Shown: in pieces, positions 44,723-62,700 of the stretch | How the letters are laid out: each line of letters opens with the position of its first letter | Position numbering within the stretch: position 1 is the stretch's first letter | Assembly (NCBI GenBank): GCA_949361645.1 | Contig: OX442416.1 | Coordinates: 12,397,350-12,461,349 of the forward strand | From: Spongilla lacustris | Taxonomy: Eukaryota; Porifera; Demospongiae; Spongillida; Spongillidae | Length of the DNA: 64,000 nucleotides | Direction: 5' to 3' | Notes under the pieces: generated by a model | What the model was told of the DNA's origin: nothing | Seen by the model: only the letters and a program-made list of their open reading frames with translations | Database searches by the model: none | Made by a program: the position numbers and the translations under genes

Positions 44723-47700
44723 GTAAGTTCTTGAAATGTGCATGCATCTTCATGCTCATGTGTAAATGTACATGTACATTGAGATACCTATACATGTACA
44801 TGTATATTACATGTATACTGTATAAGTGCATTTGTATACCGGGTGCGTGTATGGGGTACCCGGTACATGACGATGTAGTCTTCAATTTTATTGCATGTAC
44901 AGGTGATATATAAATAAATAGAATCCCTTCTTTTTACTCAAATGCTGTCTGTGTTTTAGTGTCATGTTTAGCCTTATTGTGTCTGGGAGCACCGTACATG
45001 TATCTGTGTACATGTGGGTGGGGCTAGATAGGTGGGGGTGTGCCTGTTTACACGTACTCTCCGAAGAAGCGCTTCAGTGGTTTCCCCATTGCCACATGTT
45101 TCTGGCTTCTAAATCGGTTGTCTATTACAAATAATTACCAAACAAATTCGTAGGTCCTTTGCTTAACTGCTAACATCATGCTTTAGTCGTGACGAAGACC
45201 TCTTTAATTTCCGAGCTAATCTTATCTTAGCAGATCCAGAAGAATAAGCAGAAAGGAGAAACTTTACAGGCTCGAGCTTAGGAATGAGTGAACGCTATCT
45301 CTGTTGTCTGTGCTTTCTAAGCTTTGGCAGCTTCACTGCATTGGTGGGTGCATGTATTCAATGGCTCTCACGCTCCAATGGTGTTTTTCTAATTGTATTC
45401 ACGACACTTATACATAGAACCCACTCCGTTCACACTACAGAACGGTTCCACGGAACGCTTCGGGAACCCGTTCACACTGCTCAACAGCGAGTCCTCGTGT
45501 GGCAATATGAAGTAATTATGGTTCACGTGACACATTACAAAAACGATGGGTGGTTCCTCTTTACTTTACCTAATTATAGCAGCTTATTAACATATACAAC
45601 CGTAGGTACTGCTGAACCTAAGCTAAACTAAGCCCAGCTAGTTGGGCGTACCCTAAACTAAGCCCAGCTAGACGGGGGAACAATCGCTCCAGCTAGACCC
45701 GGATGTAAATTCGGATGGGCGATGGGTCTAGCTGGATTTGTTAGCGGGTCAGCGACTGTTCCCCTGTCTAGCTGGGCTTAATTTAGGGTACACCCATCTA
45801 GCTGGGCTTAGTTTAGCTTAGGTTCAGCAGTATGTACGGTTGTATATGTTAATAAGTTGCTATATAAGTTGCTATTATTGGGATGGGGGGGGGGGGGAGG
45901 AACCCTATAGCTTACTTCTTACGATGATAGTGAGTATTTTGGGCATTCTGCGAATAACAACGAGACGCTCAAGTTCAGTGAACTTGAGCGTCTCTGTGTG
46001 TCCTCCCCACACCGCTAAAATTAATATATATTAATTAATATTCATATCAAATTATTAATTGTTATAGACTTATAAGAACGGTTCCAGCACGGTTGTTGTT
46101 CACACTGGCAGGAGAATCGTTCCGGAGCGTTTTCGGACCAGCTCTATTTGTGGTAGGCGTTCACACTATATCGAAGAACGGTTCCAGACAGGCCAGAACC
46201 GTTCTAGCGTGGTAGTGTGAACAGGGTGTAAGTTGTAACATACTATAGTATGTGTAGGTTCCGATAAGAGTCCAGACAGGCCAGAACCGTTCTAGCGTGG
46301 TAGTGTGAACGGGGTGTAAGTTGTAACATACTATAGTATGTGTAGGTTCCGATAAGAGTCCAGACGGCTTGTTTACTGCCATGGGCATGACAATATACAT
46401 GTACATACATACAGTACATGCGTTCGTCATACATGTACAACGTTGCGTATCGTCGTATTACGTGACGATGTGTATTTATAGTTAAGCCGATATCGGCAAG
46501 TGCGCTGACGTAAGTCACTACGCGCTGATGCGCTGACGTAGAACGTAAGTCGTGTGCGCAAACTCCCCTTTTTTGAAATTATACGTGTAAGTGCACGCGG
46601 CGGTAGAATATGACGCATCGAAGGGTTTCCAAGTCATCGTCTTCGTCCAAATCGATTGGTAAATCGTACTCGCTCTCAGTACTGTGTATTAACGGTCTTG
46701 CGCAGTTAGGGATGGAAAGGGCGTCCGTATTGGAACTATCGCCTCAATTGGTAAGAGCGCTCACACTGTAGATGAATATTTTACGCGTATGCAATCCAGA
46801 TACGAAAGAAGAGTTAACGGGTAACCCTGTTTACGAAAAAGAGCGTGTGAACGACGAAAGCAATGGGAAAGGAGCAGCAGCAGGGAGTGTAGAGAGAACA
46901 GCTGGAGAGCATATGGAGAGAACAGCTGAAGAGGGTAGGGATGGAGTGACTGCAGGAAATATGCATGTAAAGGAAGGAGAGACAGCAGCTGGAGAGAGTA
47001 TCAATGGAAGAAATGTTGTGAACCGCAAAAGGCATAAGTCAATCTCTGATCCCATGACTCAAGAGACCACAACAATAACAGCAAAACAAAATGAGAAAGG
47101 TTACATATATTATTAAGAAGTGATAGAATCAATTAACAAAGCATGCAATTGTAGATGATCCATTACTACATATTGGCTGTGAGGCAGAAATACACAGTTC
47201 TTCCACCAAGTGTCAATACGATACAGCTAGAGGAGAGGTACTGTGGAGGTGTGCACATGTAAATGCATTCAATCATCCCTGTACCTTGTTTCATAGGCTC
47301 TTTTACAAGCTAAATATTTAGAAGCTCTTCCTGAATTAGTGCCCTCAGCTAAGAAGAAGGTATGGTACCAATTAATGTACCTGTATTATGCATAGATCTC
47401 ATTTATTTATGTTATTCTCACAGAGAGGATGTGTGTCATTGGATATGTATGGAGTGATGCCTGTAGATGAACTTGGTGTTGATGATCCAGTGGACAATGG
47501 TAAGAGTGGCTGAGATGGTATCAAGTGGTAATGTGCTCTGTATCCATTTAGTGTCAATAGGACATGTGGACATCAAGCAACTTCTTCGTTCTCTGCAGGC
47601 TAGTCAAGATGCCACCAGTCAGCTGTTGAGTTCGATAACAAGGACGCAACGTATCCAACAGGAAACTTTAAACAGCATTTGTCACCGTCTTGATATTCTG

Positions 47701-50700
47701 GAGAAAAGAACGACCCCTTCTTCTGGCTTTCCCTACAGTTTTCCTTCCACCAATATTAATCCAACCCAGCACAAGCTATCATCAACTCCAGCTTTCCCAT
47801 CAGTACACAATCATTCCACTCCAGCAGCGCAACAGCCTCTTCAGTCCCCAGTACAGTACCAGCAGCAACTTCAGTCGACCCAGCCATCACCAGCACAGTA
47901 CCAGCAGCAACTTCAGTTGACCCAGCCATCACCAGCACAGTACCAGCAGCAACTTCAGTTGACCCAGCCATCACCAGCACAGTACCAGCAGCAACTTCAG
48001 TCGACCCAGCCATCACCAGCACAGTACCAGCAGCAACTTCAATCGACCCAGCCATCACCAGCACAGTACCAGCAGCAACTTCAGTCGACCCAGCCATCAC
48101 CAGCACAGTACCAGCAGCAACTTCAGTCGACCCAACCATCACCAGCACAGTACCAGCAGCAACTTCAGTCGACCCAGCCATCACCAGCACATTACCAGCA
48201 GCAACTTCAGTCGACCCAGCCATCACCAGCACATTACCAGCAGCAACTTCAGTCGACCCAGCCATCACCAGCACATTACCAGCAGCAACTTCAGTCGACC
48301 CAGCCATCACCAGCACAGTACCAGCAGCAACTTCAGTCGACCCAGCCATCAACCAGCAGCAACTTCAGTCGACCCACCCATCACCAGTACAGTACCAGCA
48401 GCAACTTCAGTCGACCCAGCCATCACCAGCACAGTACCAGCAGCAACTTCAGTCGACCCACCCATCACCAGTACAGTACCAGCAGCAACTTCAGTCGACC
48501 CGGCCATCTACGTCATCTAGACTTCCATCTATTCCTCATCATTCTTCTCTCTCAGTGCCTCAATCTTCTTTTCATCACCCGCTGTCTTCAGGCCAGCCTG
48601 AACAGGCATCTCTATCATCTGACAACAATGTCCATACAACTACTGACATTCATTCATGTACACCTGAACCAGTCAAATCAACTGGGTGCTCAAGTCCACT
48701 GCCGGTGAAGCATTTTGGCACAAGTAACTATACATGTCTCGCTTCTAGTGAAATTCAAAAAGAGGGACTGAGTGCTCCCAATATTGTCGTATATTTGAAC
48801 TCAAAGTTACTGATTCGGGGTAAGGCTTCAACCCTTGCTGTTAAGTTGGCCAGAGAGGCATTTTTTGGAGAGGATGTGCTTAAAAAATGCACGGTTTCTG
48901 GAGAAAGGGGTTTTCCTGGTTTACCTCTCCAGGAACTTCAAGATCTGAAGAACTTTTTATTCAAGCAGTTTGCGGTGACACCAATGGAATTTGAGTCAGT
49001 GTGGAAGAGCTGCTGTACATCAATAGGCCAAGCATGTAAGAGACTAAGAGAGAAAAAGATGTGCGCACCTGTACAACCTGGGGTAGAGCCTCATGTTTTT
49101 GTGTAATTAAAAAAAGTTCGACAACATTCCACCGCATTGCAGTGATACGCTTGTCACATGTGTTCTTTTCAGTACTCCGTGATTTTACAGCGCCCATAGT
49201 ACCCTCATTTGCATGGTATTTGGCACATCTTATGACACCTTAATTGAAGTCCCATGGTGTTCATTGTTCAGTATGCCTATATACTCTTAAGTATTGCGAA
49301 CTCAAGACTGAAAGAAAATGATACTCAGGGGTGTTAAGGCAGCCTACGCGTGTCTCGTACCCAGACCGTACATATTTAACCTTTCACAAAGTGTAAAAGC
49401 CATATAACATGTTGCATTGCCGTCAAACTTGGCTTAAGAATGCTATATATATATATCCACCTAATAGTGTTGTTCGATTGTTCAGGTTTACTTGCAAGCG
49501 TACGTATTGGTAACAATTAGCCATCGTGGCGGTGACAAAGCAATGCACGGATCAAGCAATAAATGCCATATTATGTTAGAACCCTACACGCTGGACAAAG
49601 TTACGCTTAGGTTGTGTAAGATGTACTTCAGCCTTCGTAGCAATCCTGCGTAGTATTTTTTCAAAATGGCGGCGTATTTACATAAACACGACTATATTTA
49701 GCGAACCAAGTACAGTTGTACGTTCCAATCACATCCTAAGCGTATATGAGCAATAGAAACATCGTGTAACATACCAGGCACAAAAGTCCTCTTATCCGCC
49801 CTCGTCTTCATCAGCGCCGTTTTGCTTTTCACAAACGACCCTCTTAAGGCGATAAAATATGACGTAACTGAACTTTCCCGCTCGACAGCTGCAACTTTTA
49901 TATTGTCAAGCCAAAACTTCTATGCGTCATATACGAAATCTAAGCGCTAGAATACCCTAGCACGACAATAGGTATGAATGCTTTACAAAAATATCTTCCG
50001 TACGATCGCAATACTTGAATAAACAGTGATTTGCACTATGTCATAATGATGTAATCATGAACATACTTGTCGACATATTGTCAACATCATGTAAATATGT
50101 TTTCTTGTGTAGGCTGCCTTAACATCCCTGAGTACCTATATTTGGTATGAACATTAACTTCATCCTTCTGTCCAACAGTTTGTCAATTACAAGAATTCCA
50201 TCGAAAACCATCGTGAAGTAATGTCTTAATAGCGCTTTGGCGTCAATTTGTATGTCTTGTAGCAAGGATCTTCTATTCTTCTATCTGCTTCATTAGAGTG
50301 TGAACGTGAAGCGAACACATCAGTAAACATCCCTCCAAAGTCTAACTTCATGTGACCTTACCATACAGAAAGGTGTCAGTTTAGTGAATTCATCATGGGC
50401 GTCCCCGGGGGGGGGGGGGCCTGCCCCTTCCCCCCTCCCCCCTGTTACATACATATGTACCCCCATCGGCTGAATTGGCTGAAAGCGGACAGCACCCTCC
50501 CCCCACTTATTGAATCGGCCAAAACTAAACGCACACCTCACTGATTGAATCAGCCAAAAGCGGACAGCACCCCCCCCCCCCCATCCCCCCCCCCTCCACT
50601 GGTTGAATCAGCTGAAAGCGGACAGCACCCCTCCCCACTGGTTGAATCGGCCGAAAGCAGACACCCCCCCACTGGCTGAATCGGCCAAAAGCAGACAACA

Positions 50701-56700: not shown

Positions 56701-59700
56701 CTTCCGAGAGTGGTGGAGTTCATAAAACAGTTCCCTCAATTCCTCGAGACTGTAGGGTCATGTGCCAGAAAGACAGAGGTGGCCCTCTGGCAGTATCTGT
56801 TTGCAGCTGTGGGTAATCCTCGAGACCTGTTTGAGGTACTTGTGTGTATGAAAGGTGGCACAATGATCTGTTTTGTTACAGTGTACATCACATGCACGTG
56901 TGTGTTTATTGTATGTTATACATGTATATAATTCAAATGTCCAAATGACATGTACATGTAGCAATTGAGCGAATCAGAATATGCATGCTTTTTAAATTGT
57001 ACAAGTACATTTGTACATTCGACACGATGGGAGCATGAAATAGAGCTCTCCCTTTTTACATGAATTCTACCTCATTTACATGTATTAGCTCTGCCTTTCT
57101 GATGGACGGCTCAAGACTGCAGCTTGTTATCTCATCATCATCCAAAATCTAGAGTCTTCTGCTGTGAGCAGGCAGGTGAGTTGTGGTACTAATTGTCCTT
57201 AGAAGTGTACCTGTGGATAGGATTGATTTGAGAGCAACATTTTTTGTTTTGTTTTAAGGTTAGTACAATTGTAATGTACATTTGGTACTGAAATGACTTG
57301 AATCAAATAATTAATTTCAACCTGTTGATTGAATTGTTTTGTACAAAGCAGTATGATTTATCATGTTAAACTGTTCTGTCCACAGCTAGCCACTCGACTG
57401 CTGGATGCTGCACTAGATAGTAATGAATGGGAGGTACATGTGCATGTATGTGTGTTCCTTGTTATCTGTTACATGTACATGTACACTTTTTAGTAATTAC
57501 GTGAATATGTACATATACATGTTGTATGCAGTAAAGTATTCTATTTTGTAGGTGGGTACAATACAATGGTGTACAGTTTAGTGTGTTTCTCAATGAAGGA
57601 AATTACAGTTAATCAACTTATAATTGTTAAAGTTATAATACATGTACAGTATGCGTCAATATAAAGTTAACGCCACGCAGTGCGCTTCGAGGTAGCGCAC
57701 TACCTTATATAGGTAGAAATGTGCGGAAGTTAGACATGTGCAATATAAACGTAGAAAAATGCTCTACCTTATGGCCAACATGTAACATAAAAACATGTTT
57801 ACAACAAGTGTTCGATTCTGCAGCTGCTACAACTACCCGCGCTCTGCTAGGCTTTGCTTGAACAGCTGCACGATTTTATATCGCAGACGCTACCAGACTG
57901 AACGACGCTAAGGTCGCTTGATCTAGAGTGCCACCTGCCCAAATTCATGCGAGTCGAGTGAGTCGTATTCGATCACGATAAGCAAGCGCGCGAGTCCTCT
58001 TACGAGTGCATATTGCGAGCGTCACTCAACAACCGAACTACATGTAAATGAACGGCCCAGCCCGCTTTACAAAAGTTGGCGCGCTGATGTGTACTTTCAA
58101 TCGATCGCACCAAGGACACTTAATTATTACAATTAAGTGTCCTTGATCGCACGTACGATGAAAACAGTTCTAACTGTTATAATCAGATTCAGATTATTAT
58201 CTGTAATCATACTTTTGCGTGCGCTTTGATTAACTGGATAGATGCCATAATTGTATGTCTACTATAATGGATCCTGGGTGTGGCCCTTACATGGAGGCGG
58301 AACAGGGTTAAAACACTTGAAGGGCCTTGGGTGTGGTCTATCACAAAAGGCAGAATGGGGTTAATAGACTTGGGTGTGGCCAATCTTTGGAGGCAGAATG
58401 GGGTTAAGGGGCTTACGAGCCAGAAGGGTCCTGGGTGTGGGCAGAATTTAAGCGACTTAGCCGCCAAAAGGGTCCTGGGGTTTGGGCAGAATGGGGTTAA
58501 TGGACATGAGCCGTTAGAAGGATCATGGGTGTGGCCTATCTCTGAAGGCAGAATGGGTTTAACCCCAAAGCATCTCCCTCACTGACCACACCCATGAAAC
58601 CTATGTGCCACAGAGTTCATTAACCCCAAAGCATCTCACTCACTGACCACACCCATGGGACCTCTGTGCCGCAGCAGTCATTAACCCCAAAGCATCTCAC
58701 TCACTGACCACACCCATGGGACCTCTGTGCCGCAGCAGTCATTAACCCCAAAGCATCTCATTCACTGACCACACCCATGGGACCTCTGTGCCGCAGCAGT
58801 CATTAACCCCAAAGCATCTCATTCACTGACCACACCCATGGGACCTCTGTGCCGCAGAGGTCATTAACCCCAAAGCATCTCCCTCACTGACCACACCCAT
58901 GAAACCTATGTGCCACAGAGTTCATTAACCCCAAAGCATCTCACTCACTGACCACATCCATGGGACCTCTGTGCCGCAGCAGTCATTAACCCCAAAGCAT
59001 CTCACTCACTTACCACACCCATGGGACCTCTGTGCCGCAGAGGTCATTAACCCCAAAGCATCTCATTCACTGACCACACCCATGGGACCTCTGTGCCGTA
59101 GAGGTCATTAACCCCAAAGCATCTCACTCACTGACCACACCCATGGAACCTCATTCACTAACCACACCCATGGGACCTCTGTGCCGCAGAGGTCATTAAC
59201 CCCAAAGCATCTCACTCACTGACCACACCCATGGGACCTCGGTGCCGCAGAGGTCATTAACCCCAAAGCATCTCATTCACTGACCACACCCATGGGACCT
59301 CTGTGCCGCAGAGGTCATTAACCCCAAAGCATCTTATTCACTTACCACACCCATGGGACCTCTGTGCCGCAGAGGTCATTAACCCCAAAGCATCTCACTC
59401 ACTGACCACACCCATGGGACCTCTGTGCCGCAGCAGTCATTAACCCCAAAGCATCTCACTCACTGACCACACCCATGGAACCTCATTCACTAACCACACC
59501 CATGGGACCTCTGTGCCGCAGAGGTCATTAACCCCAAAGCATCTCACTCACTGACCACACCCATGGGACCTCTGTGCCACAGAGGTCATTAACCCCAAAG
59601 CATCTCACTCACTGACCACACCCATGGGACCTCTGTGCCGCAGAGGTCATTAACCCCAAAGCATCTCACTCACTGACCACACCCATGGGACCTCTGTGCC

Positions 59701-62700
59701 GCAGCAGTCATTAACCCCAAAGCATCTCACTCACTGACCACACCCATGGAACCTCATTCACTAACCACACCCATGGGACCTCTGTGCCGCAGAGGTCATT
59801 AACCCCAAAGCATCTCACTCACTGACCACACCCATGGGACCTCTGTGCCGCAGAGGTCATTAACCCCAAAGCATCTCACTCACTGACCACACCCATGGGA
59901 CCTCTGTGCCGCAGAGGTCATTAACCCCAAAGCATCTTATTCACTGACCACACCCATGGGACCTCTGTGCCGCAGAGGTCATTAACCCCAAAGCATCTCA
60001 CTTACTGACCACACCCATGGGACCTCTGTGCCGCAGAGGTCATTAACCACAAAGCATCTTATTCACTGACCACACCCATGGGACCTCAGTGCTGCAGAGG
60101 TCATTAACCCCAAAGCATCTCACCCAGCAAAGAGTGCATTAATTCCTAACTGATTGACTTGTACTGCTCTGAGGTAGATGGAGTGGTGATAGTAATGGTG
60201 AGTAGACAAGGATGAATATGAATATGAATATCTATGTCTATAGGGTGAAAATGTCCCTAGTGGGATCAGGTCAGTGGCTAATTCTGGCTGTGGGTCAGTG
60301 GCTGGTGCTGTGACTGTTGCTGTGGCTGGTGTTGTGACTGTTGCTGTGACTGTTGCTGTGACTGGTACTGGTGCTGTGCCTGGTGCTGTGACTGGTGCTG
60401 TGACTGGTGCTGTGACTGTTGCTATGGCTGTTGCTATGGCTGTTGCTGTGACTGTTGCTGTGACTGGTGCTGTGACTGGTGCTGTGACTGTTGCTGTGGC
60501 TGGTGCTGTGACTGGTGCTGTGACTGTTGCTATGGCTGTTGCTATGGCTGTTGCTGTGGCTGGTGCTGTGACTGGTGCTGTGACTGTTGCTGTGGCTGGT
60601 GCTGTGACTGGTGCTGTGACTGTTGCTATGGCTGGTGTTGTGACTGTTGCTGTGGCTGGTGCTGTGACTGGTGCTGTGACTGGTGCTGTGATTGGTGTTG
60701 TGGCTGGTGCTGTGACTGTTGCTGTGGCTGTTGCTATGGCTGTTGCTGTGACTGTTGCTGTGACTGTTGCTGTGACTGTTGCTGTGACTGTTGCTGTGAC
60801 TGTTGCTGTGACTAGTGCTGTGACTGATGCTGTGACTGGTGCTGTGACTGTTGCTATGGCTGTTGCTATGACTGTTGCTGTGACTGGTGCTGTGACTGGT
60901 GCTGTGACTGGTGCTGTGACTGTTGCTATGGCTGTTGCTGTGACTGTTGCTGTGACTGGTGCTGTGACTGGTGCTGTGGCTGGTGCTGTGGCTGGTGCTG
61001 TGTCAGTCCCAGCTGTTTCCATAGTTGTTGCTGCAGGATGGTTGAATTATACACCCAGTAGCGCTATCAATTCAGAAAACGCTTACGTTGTTCTATTGTG
61101 GCAATTTCAACAGCTGTTGCCACTGAATCAGCTCCCCCTTGTAGGAACTCTTTTTCGAGACACTCCATATCACTCTTGCCCCTAATGGTAATCATTGAAT
61201 CTGGATCGATTGGTTTGTGGTAAATATAATTTAGTTTACCTGAACCCACAATCTCTCCATAGTACAGTGTCTTCGCCCACTTCACAGTGCAATCCACCCC
61301 ACCCCCGCTGTTGACGGATACGGCTCTGCCAGGCACCACAAAGTAGAGTTCTAGTGTCATCACGCGGGTCATTAAACTAAATCTAATATCGAACCTGTCT
61401 CTTTGAGCGCCGTTCTTAAAGACATAGCTCAACTCTTGGGCTAAATTGTACGCTATATGCACTGCTCGCGGATCGGCTGCATTATATACGAGCGATTGCT
61501 TTAAGCACATGCGCATTCGATGAATGTTAGGCGCGCTTAGATATGATTGGTTAACGGTGTTGAAGAAACGCGGGACTCGTACAATATGGAATGCATACGC
61601 ACATGCATCAAAACACATGTTTACATACATGAACATAATGTTCAAGTTACCCTACATAAAGGTAGTACCCTTATTAGGTAAAAATTACCCCCTAGCGCAA
61701 ATTAATTTTCTACGTAGGTAGAGCACTGCGTAGATAGCGCACTGCGTGGCGTTAACTTTATATTGACGCATACTGTAACATGCTAGTGGTATAAAATTAA
61801 TTTAAAGGTTACATGTAAATCAAACAATAACTCCTACATTTAAGTAATTGCTTAACTGTAGTTTGCAGCAATCTACGTGCTTATCATTTATTATCTTGAA
61901 ATGAAGGGGCATTGTATCATGATTTAGTAGTTCAAATTTGTTTATAAATTAATAAGTTGAAATTAATAAAATTCTAACAGTGTTGGTGCTTCACATGTGT
62001 ATTCGCTATTAGGTATTTACATGGATTATTATTTCATTTCAGTTTGTTTGATTTTAGTTACATGTATTAACAATGAAATATCTTTATATCAGCATGTTAT
62101 CACAAATGGGTATAATGTATTCCATGAATTAAAATACTATTGATTGCTATATGCACATGTATATGTACACTTCATCTTGTATACATGTATACATATTTAA
62201 TTTATATGTGAATCTTTTTTAACATCTTTGCTACTTTTGCTACCTTTTTGTCAAGGTGGTTGTGGACCTTGTCCGGTTTTTAAGAGCAATAGGTATGTTG
62301 TAGTATTGATGCAGCACATGTACATGTATATGCACACCATGTAAATGTATATGCCGAGAAGACAAGAATATTGGGAGGGACTGGTCATTTATTTGTATGC
62401 ATTATGCCTGTGTGCATGTGTACGGATGTGTAAAATAACATATTTGTCCTGTTTTGAATGTTTTCTGATCATATTACATGTACGTGTATGATCTACATGT
62501 AAATCCAGGGCCCGGGGATGCAATGGATAGTCCTGCTCACTCCATGACCTCACCCATCTCTCCTGGCAATGTAACTCCCAAGCTGTCGAGAAACAGAGGA
62601 TCCTTCACCTCACACATTGGTCGTGGTACTTCCCCATTTACCGCTCCACCTGATCTAGACAGGTCTGCCAGGGACCACCTGCCTGGCGGGCCTGTGTCCA

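Follow-up and report, generated by a model that had tools for sequence, protein, structure and literature searches.

The element at 57647..61775 of a 64-kb window of Spongilla lacustris DNA (the window being the whole stretch analysed; coordinates are those of the window unless a locus is named) is a real, amplified, mobile, non-autonomous TA-site element. We consider it very probable that it descends, by internal deletion and amplification, from a Tc1-like (DD34E) transposon with two genes, and that its cargo of two tandem arrays and an open reading frame (ORF) was inherited rather than captured. The parent would have had the layout terminal inverted repeat (TIR), transposase, tandem-repeat spacer and, read inwards from the other TIR, a convergent second gene; this layout is present in locus L027, which has the focal ends, and in the relatives L053, L054+L059 and L049+L056. 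In all likelihood, the second gene carries a C-terminal BEN domain behind a repetitive linker and a first exon with a putative Tudor-like domain. Deletions on opposite sides of the 61-bp array would have removed nearly the whole transposase and the BEN end from the focal copy, leaving both TIRs, the 61-bp spacer array, the 12-bp linker array and the first exon.

Two inverted arms of 42 nt each, TA included, lie at 57645-57686 and 61736-61777 and are 100% complementary. Without the flanking TA they give a left TIR at 57647..57686 (+ strand) and a right TIR at 61736..61775 (- strand), each of 40 nt, recognized by arm complementarity and by the genome-wide end pattern. These are the 40-nt ends, with identical coordinates, of a first-pass annotation of this DNA, and the TA, the 61-bp array, the 12-bp array and the ORF that it described are likewise borne out by arm comparison, Tandem Repeats Finder (TRF) and the ORF list. 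In the genome searched (248.6 Mb, 51 contigs), a 27-nt end pattern with at most three mismatches occurs at 56 sites and its reversed control at none, which excludes chance as the source of the ends and shows that they are not peculiar to this locus, a possibility that the annotation had raised against its own proposal. We retrieved 40 stretches with such ends or with ORF matches, 18 of which have both ends, so that with the focal copy there are 19 full-length copies. They occupy ~16 distinct TA sites, because L014-16 have flanks in common, as do L023-24. Of these copies, 18 are 2.6–4.7 kb long and L027 measures 7.8 kb. In the sequence outside the arrays, 15 sisters (the comparison omits L019, L027 and L028) are 91–99% identical to the focal copy on the left and 94–99% on the right, with L020 (53%) and L021 (85%) as exceptions on the right; the nearest sister is L012, at 99%. 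The first exon is present in all full-length copies except L020, the 12-bp array is found by TRF in all except L019, and the 61-bp core, present 4–39 times in 17 out of 19 copies, has a single occurrence in L027 and is absent from L028. The proposal of a non-autonomous mobile TA-site unit thus holds, as these ends, with their arrays between them, recur at ~16 sites. The flank-sharing copies (L014–L016, L023–L024 and L017–L018, some of them inverted) may be segmental duplications or assembly artefacts; their 61-bp core counts differ slightly, being 16, 15 and 15 in L014-16 and differing also within L023-24.

TA dinucleotides stand at the ends of full-length copies, and in the focal copy they are read at 57645..57646 and 61776..61777. 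The insertion of L014-16 splits a retroelement frame, and its flanks, joined with one TA, read ...MELDTGAA.... Because uninterrupted sites with a single TA exist, the TA duplication is demonstrated for this sister insertion: the 202-nt junction is found uninterrupted, at 99–100% identity, at four loci, and two further loci match it at 98% over positions 19–202 and at 93% over 6–202. The L025 locus was set aside as a clean empty site, since a 10-bp difference lies beside the TA in all four aligned paralogs.

The left part of the focal copy connects it to a transposase. Its first 274 nt (57645..57918, +) are common to L045 (88%) and partly to L027 (90%), and both of these continue past this transposase-side end into Tc1-like transposase pieces that lie in broken frames next to ends of the focal type. 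The piece in L045 matches DDE_3 at 1.6e-17 and the Sleeping Beauty transposase SB100X at 2.9e-22. The window itself contains no transposase match at E 0.01, and the focal element is thus without transposase; it would have been moved in trans by a transposase of the same lineage. Among the matches listed, the next transposase relatives are at most 79% identical, and three of them, L049-51, have related ends, with TACAGTATAGGTCAATAAAAAGTTA in L050. The D-to-E spacing is 34 residues in the transposases of six out of six relatives (DD34E), and HTH_Tnp_Tc3_2 matches in L052 and L053, at 1e-4 and 2.9e-4, were below the cut-off.

The transposase is not the sole gene of these elements. Between the focal-type ends of L027 (7.8 kb) lie the broken transposase, the 61-bp core, BEN, the 12-bp arrays and the first exon, and the second gene, whose ORF served as a genome probe, is convergent to the transposase. 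L053 is complete, with both genes inside exact 42-nt TIRs that are 3.65 kb apart. Both genes are also inside matching ends in L054+L059 (6.4 kb) and in L049+L056 (5.0 kb; one of its ends has a short deletion), each joined from neighbouring stretches. As a side observation, the 62-bp-type repeat of the L049-51 family flanks the copy in L027 (L027 8346-8500), which seems to be inserted in the array of another element.

It could be argued that the second gene belongs to a host BEN family that often lies beside Tc1 insertions, through nested insertion or a shared target preference. We compared the best 46 of 141 transposase rows with 59 of 66 accessory rows (seven secondary pieces were dropped). 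A tail-to-tail accessory match within 10 kb was found for 30 out of the 46 transposase rows, another order for one, and no accessory match for 15, while random placement gave a mean of 0.2 pairs and a maximum of 3 in 2000 runs. The number of independent pairs is below 30, because two share one accessory match and nine near-equal scores may represent one recent set. The 15 transposase matches without a partner are what a host family would predict, and some BEN matches are indeed solitary, such as that at 48735-49055 of the window. However, the tail-to-tail order is fixed in 30 of 31 close pairs, both genes lie within matching TIRs in L053, L054+L059, L049+L056 and L027, and BEN-exon and DDE-exon distances, compared by eye and as distances only, rank the subfamilies alike. 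We regard the host-family explanation as highly improbable and as largely refuted by L053. The nine near-equal transposase loci (187.6-191.3 bits; C1:20.24M; C3:2.61M, 5.30M, 5.82M, 7.27M and 11.28M; C5:3.87M; C17:3.01M and 3.03M), each with a paired accessory match, are perhaps a recently active two-gene family; its single member read, L052, is one in which a tandem spacer was not found.

Structure modelling indicates that the second gene encodes a C-terminal BEN domain. The model of this part has a predicted local distance difference test (pLDDT) score of 92, and the best 8 Foldseek rows and the best 12 VIA rows are all BEN domains. PF10523 was found in 9 out of 18 relatives at E <=0.1 (best 2.3e-5), the BEN profile score of L053 was 17.1 bits against a cut-off of 23.2, and a precomputed BEN annotation exists for one of 19 homologs (P0018). 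For the cut BEN pieces from L027, L049 and L050, no match to BEN was found in Pfam. Profile A1, compared with PDB sequences, matched only SidK, which was rejected, as the match had E 0.4-0.5 and covered mostly the non-BEN part, and none of 48 pattern matches in IMG/VR viral contigs was confirmed as a BEN relative. The BEN exon is under purifying selection. For the first exon, the Foldseek comparison suggests a Tudor-like domain, on weaker evidence. The accessory protein would aid its own element by binding DNA or chromatin.

A further gene of similar kind lies in the window at 46696-49103 (+). It has a partial first exon (57% over 23 residues) with an in-frame stop in the first-exon stretch, a 42-bp coding array at 47848-48508 and a BEN domain at 48735-49055 that is 57% identical to that of L053. 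It may be a relic that stands alone or else a host relative of the transposon gene.

The ORF of the focal element represents the first-exon part of this second gene. The 194-codon frame (61067..61651, -) is homologous to the first exon, with z scores of 13.7, 7.7 and 15.3 over shuffles, and itself has no Pfam, PHROG or PDB sequence match; its six database relatives showed no domain. About 12 residues found in most aligned sister copies are deleted from it, and because of this loss a working protein is unlikely. Next to it, the 12-bp array (60298..61002, -; 59 copies by TRF) is open on the minus strand and encodes an Ala/Thr/Val/Pro repeat as in the linker of the second gene, to which it corresponds. 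In L039 (4580-7574), the first exon continues straight into a long simple tandem array, so that frames of 500 and 882 codons are open, one on each strand.

The 61-bp array (58559..60123, +), the counterpart of the spacer that follows the BEN end in the second gene, comprises 27 occurrences of a 32-nt core at >=25/32 matches, and TRF gives it higher-order periods of 210, 271 and 332 bp, with a recurrent 27-bp partial unit. Before it, at 58268..58560 (-), there are probably degenerate units of the 61-bp type in inverted orientation, as suggested by two short motifs (GGGTGTGG, five times, and TGGGGTTAA, three times); these motifs carry the assignment, because the whole-unit alignment score of 15 is not above shuffles (maximum 17.5). 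A remnant of the second gene (60150..60297, -) aligns to L027 and L030, and both alignments end at 60150, near the end of the 61-bp array. In L035 the 61-bp array begins 82 nt behind the BEN ORF. Because the alignments stop at 60150 and the arrays of L035 and L027 stand behind BEN, a deletion of nearly all of the transposase and of the BEN end around the array would explain the focal structure. Slippage, unequal exchange or aborted gap repair may have produced the deletions and the changes in the arrays.

The first-pass annotation had instead proposed that satellite DNA and part of a gene were captured by a mobile unit that could spread satellites. On this reading, a miniature inverted-repeat transposable element (MITE)-like unit would have picked up a genomic satellite and a piece of a host gene and would now spread both. 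Units resembling the 61-bp repeat (~85% identity) do occur away from detected elements, one set of them just beyond the end of L024, and the window also has a similar BEN gene with no transposase nearby. However, L027 has the array, the linker array and the ORF in the order of the focal copy, L030 and L035 have this order in part, the two-gene layout recurs in relatives with other ends, and 30 of 46 transposase matches are co-located with the accessory gene. We thus find capture improbable, and descent from a two-gene parent the better account. As for the arrays lying outside the element, which the annotation had named as the other difficulty for its proposal, 61-bp-like units are indeed found outside, so that this difficulty is borne out in part.

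Several observations weigh against descent from a two-gene transposon. The units outside elements are one. No intact transposase with the exact ends of the focal element was found in these genome searches, and although a partner with the same ends exists (L045 and L027; the annotation had suggested a search for an autonomous one), its transposase is broken in both copies. Only 2.4 units of the 61-bp type are retained behind BEN in L027. In addition, 15 of 46 transposase matches lack an accessory match and one pair has a different order, the Foldseek E-values are weak (0.34 at best for BEN and 0.07 for Tudor), and the evident GT-AG splice of the focal ORF would shift the frame, so that no spliced protein is claimed.

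It would be tempting to infer that the arrays serve a function by offering clustered binding sites to the BEN protein of the element itself, rather than neutral repeats in an unconstrained spacer. A tandem array lies 3' of BEN in 8 out of 11 BEN-carrying loci (L027, L030, L035, L049, L050, L051, L053 and L054). The 61-bp unit is similar to the 62-bp unit, with which it has CCACACCCA in common (their score is reached in 4 of 300 shuffles), and the 61- and 38-bp units are alike on opposite strands (0 of 300 shuffles). On the other hand, the units are 60–61, 26, 62, 53 and 38 bp long and unrelated-looking in several cases, the 53-bp unit showed no likeness to the others in the shuffle comparison, and in three of the 11 loci no array was detected (L041 and L052; in L028 the BEN piece abuts the element end). 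The likeness among arrays of different subfamilies is unproven, as the units are short, compositionally biased and compared after the fact, and neutral growth of arrays suffices because the 64-kb window alone holds 95 TRF rows. A weakly constrained spacer with renewed repeats is thus the likeliest reading; functional arrays are possible but, in our view, unlikely. Bolder, and more doubtful still, is the idea of a Tc1 lineage with its own chromatin toolkit, in which a Tudor-BEN protein and an array of its putative binding sites co-evolve. By binding the element that encodes it, the protein would direct repair or targeting or help the element to escape silencing, and crippled copies would spread BEN-binding satellites through the genome. 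In L030 (2321-3250), a 26-bp array of ~35 copies lies directly behind the BEN ORF, where sisters carry the 61-bp array.

Tc1/mariner elements are described as encoding, in the typical case, a transposase only (PMC12242761). The present elements resemble Tc1 (DD34E) elements of the IS630-Tc1-mariner group, such as Sleeping Beauty, in the TA duplication, CAGT ends, DDE_3, the DD34E spacing of the relatives and the SB100X match. However, the complete relatives are 3.65-6.4 kb long with a BEN-encoding second gene and tandem arrays, and the focal copy lacks the transposase. Accessory proteins beside a Tc1/mariner transposase are described for the ciliate TBE elements of Oxytricha, one of them a zinc-finger/kinase protein and the other a protein of 22 kDa that lacks known domains, but these are not Tudor/BEN proteins and the sections consulted mention no tandem-array spacer (PMC12242761). 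Tetris of Drosophila virilis is a non-autonomous transposon whose internal tandem repeats also form a satellite (PMC4079207); it differs in being a foldback element with 220-bp repeats in its TIRs, whereas the present arrays lie internally, one being derived from a coding linker and the other from an intergenic spacer. The C-terminal domain shares its fold and a partial Pfam match with the BEN-domain proteins BANP, BEND3, Insensitive, Bsg25A and NACC1, but at 11-24% identity in the alignments concerned, and here it is found within a transposon, connected with a Tudor-like exon and a repeat linker. Our literature search found no BEN-carrying Tc1/mariner element, although a database entry or a further paper may describe one; the word BEN is absent from the main text of PMC10027918 (whole-word check).

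The cargo of the focal element looks inherited, and the wider finding is a lineage of two-gene Tc1-like transposons that have a Tudor-like/BEN protein and resident tandem arrays. A diversified Tc1 lineage that keeps a BEN gene under purifying selection alters the transposase-only picture and suggests that BEN genes can come from a mobile source. Moreover, it points to a route from transposon parts to satellite, in which defective copies turn a coding linker and an intergenic spacer into long arrays of variable length.

An Rfam search of the window gave no match. The remaining part of the element, between the transposase-side end and the inverted units, is filler (57919..58267) across which sister copies align; within it lies a near-perfect short palindrome, CAAGGACACTTAATTATTACAATTAAGTGTCCTTG (58111-58145), which is perhaps a tiny nested insertion.

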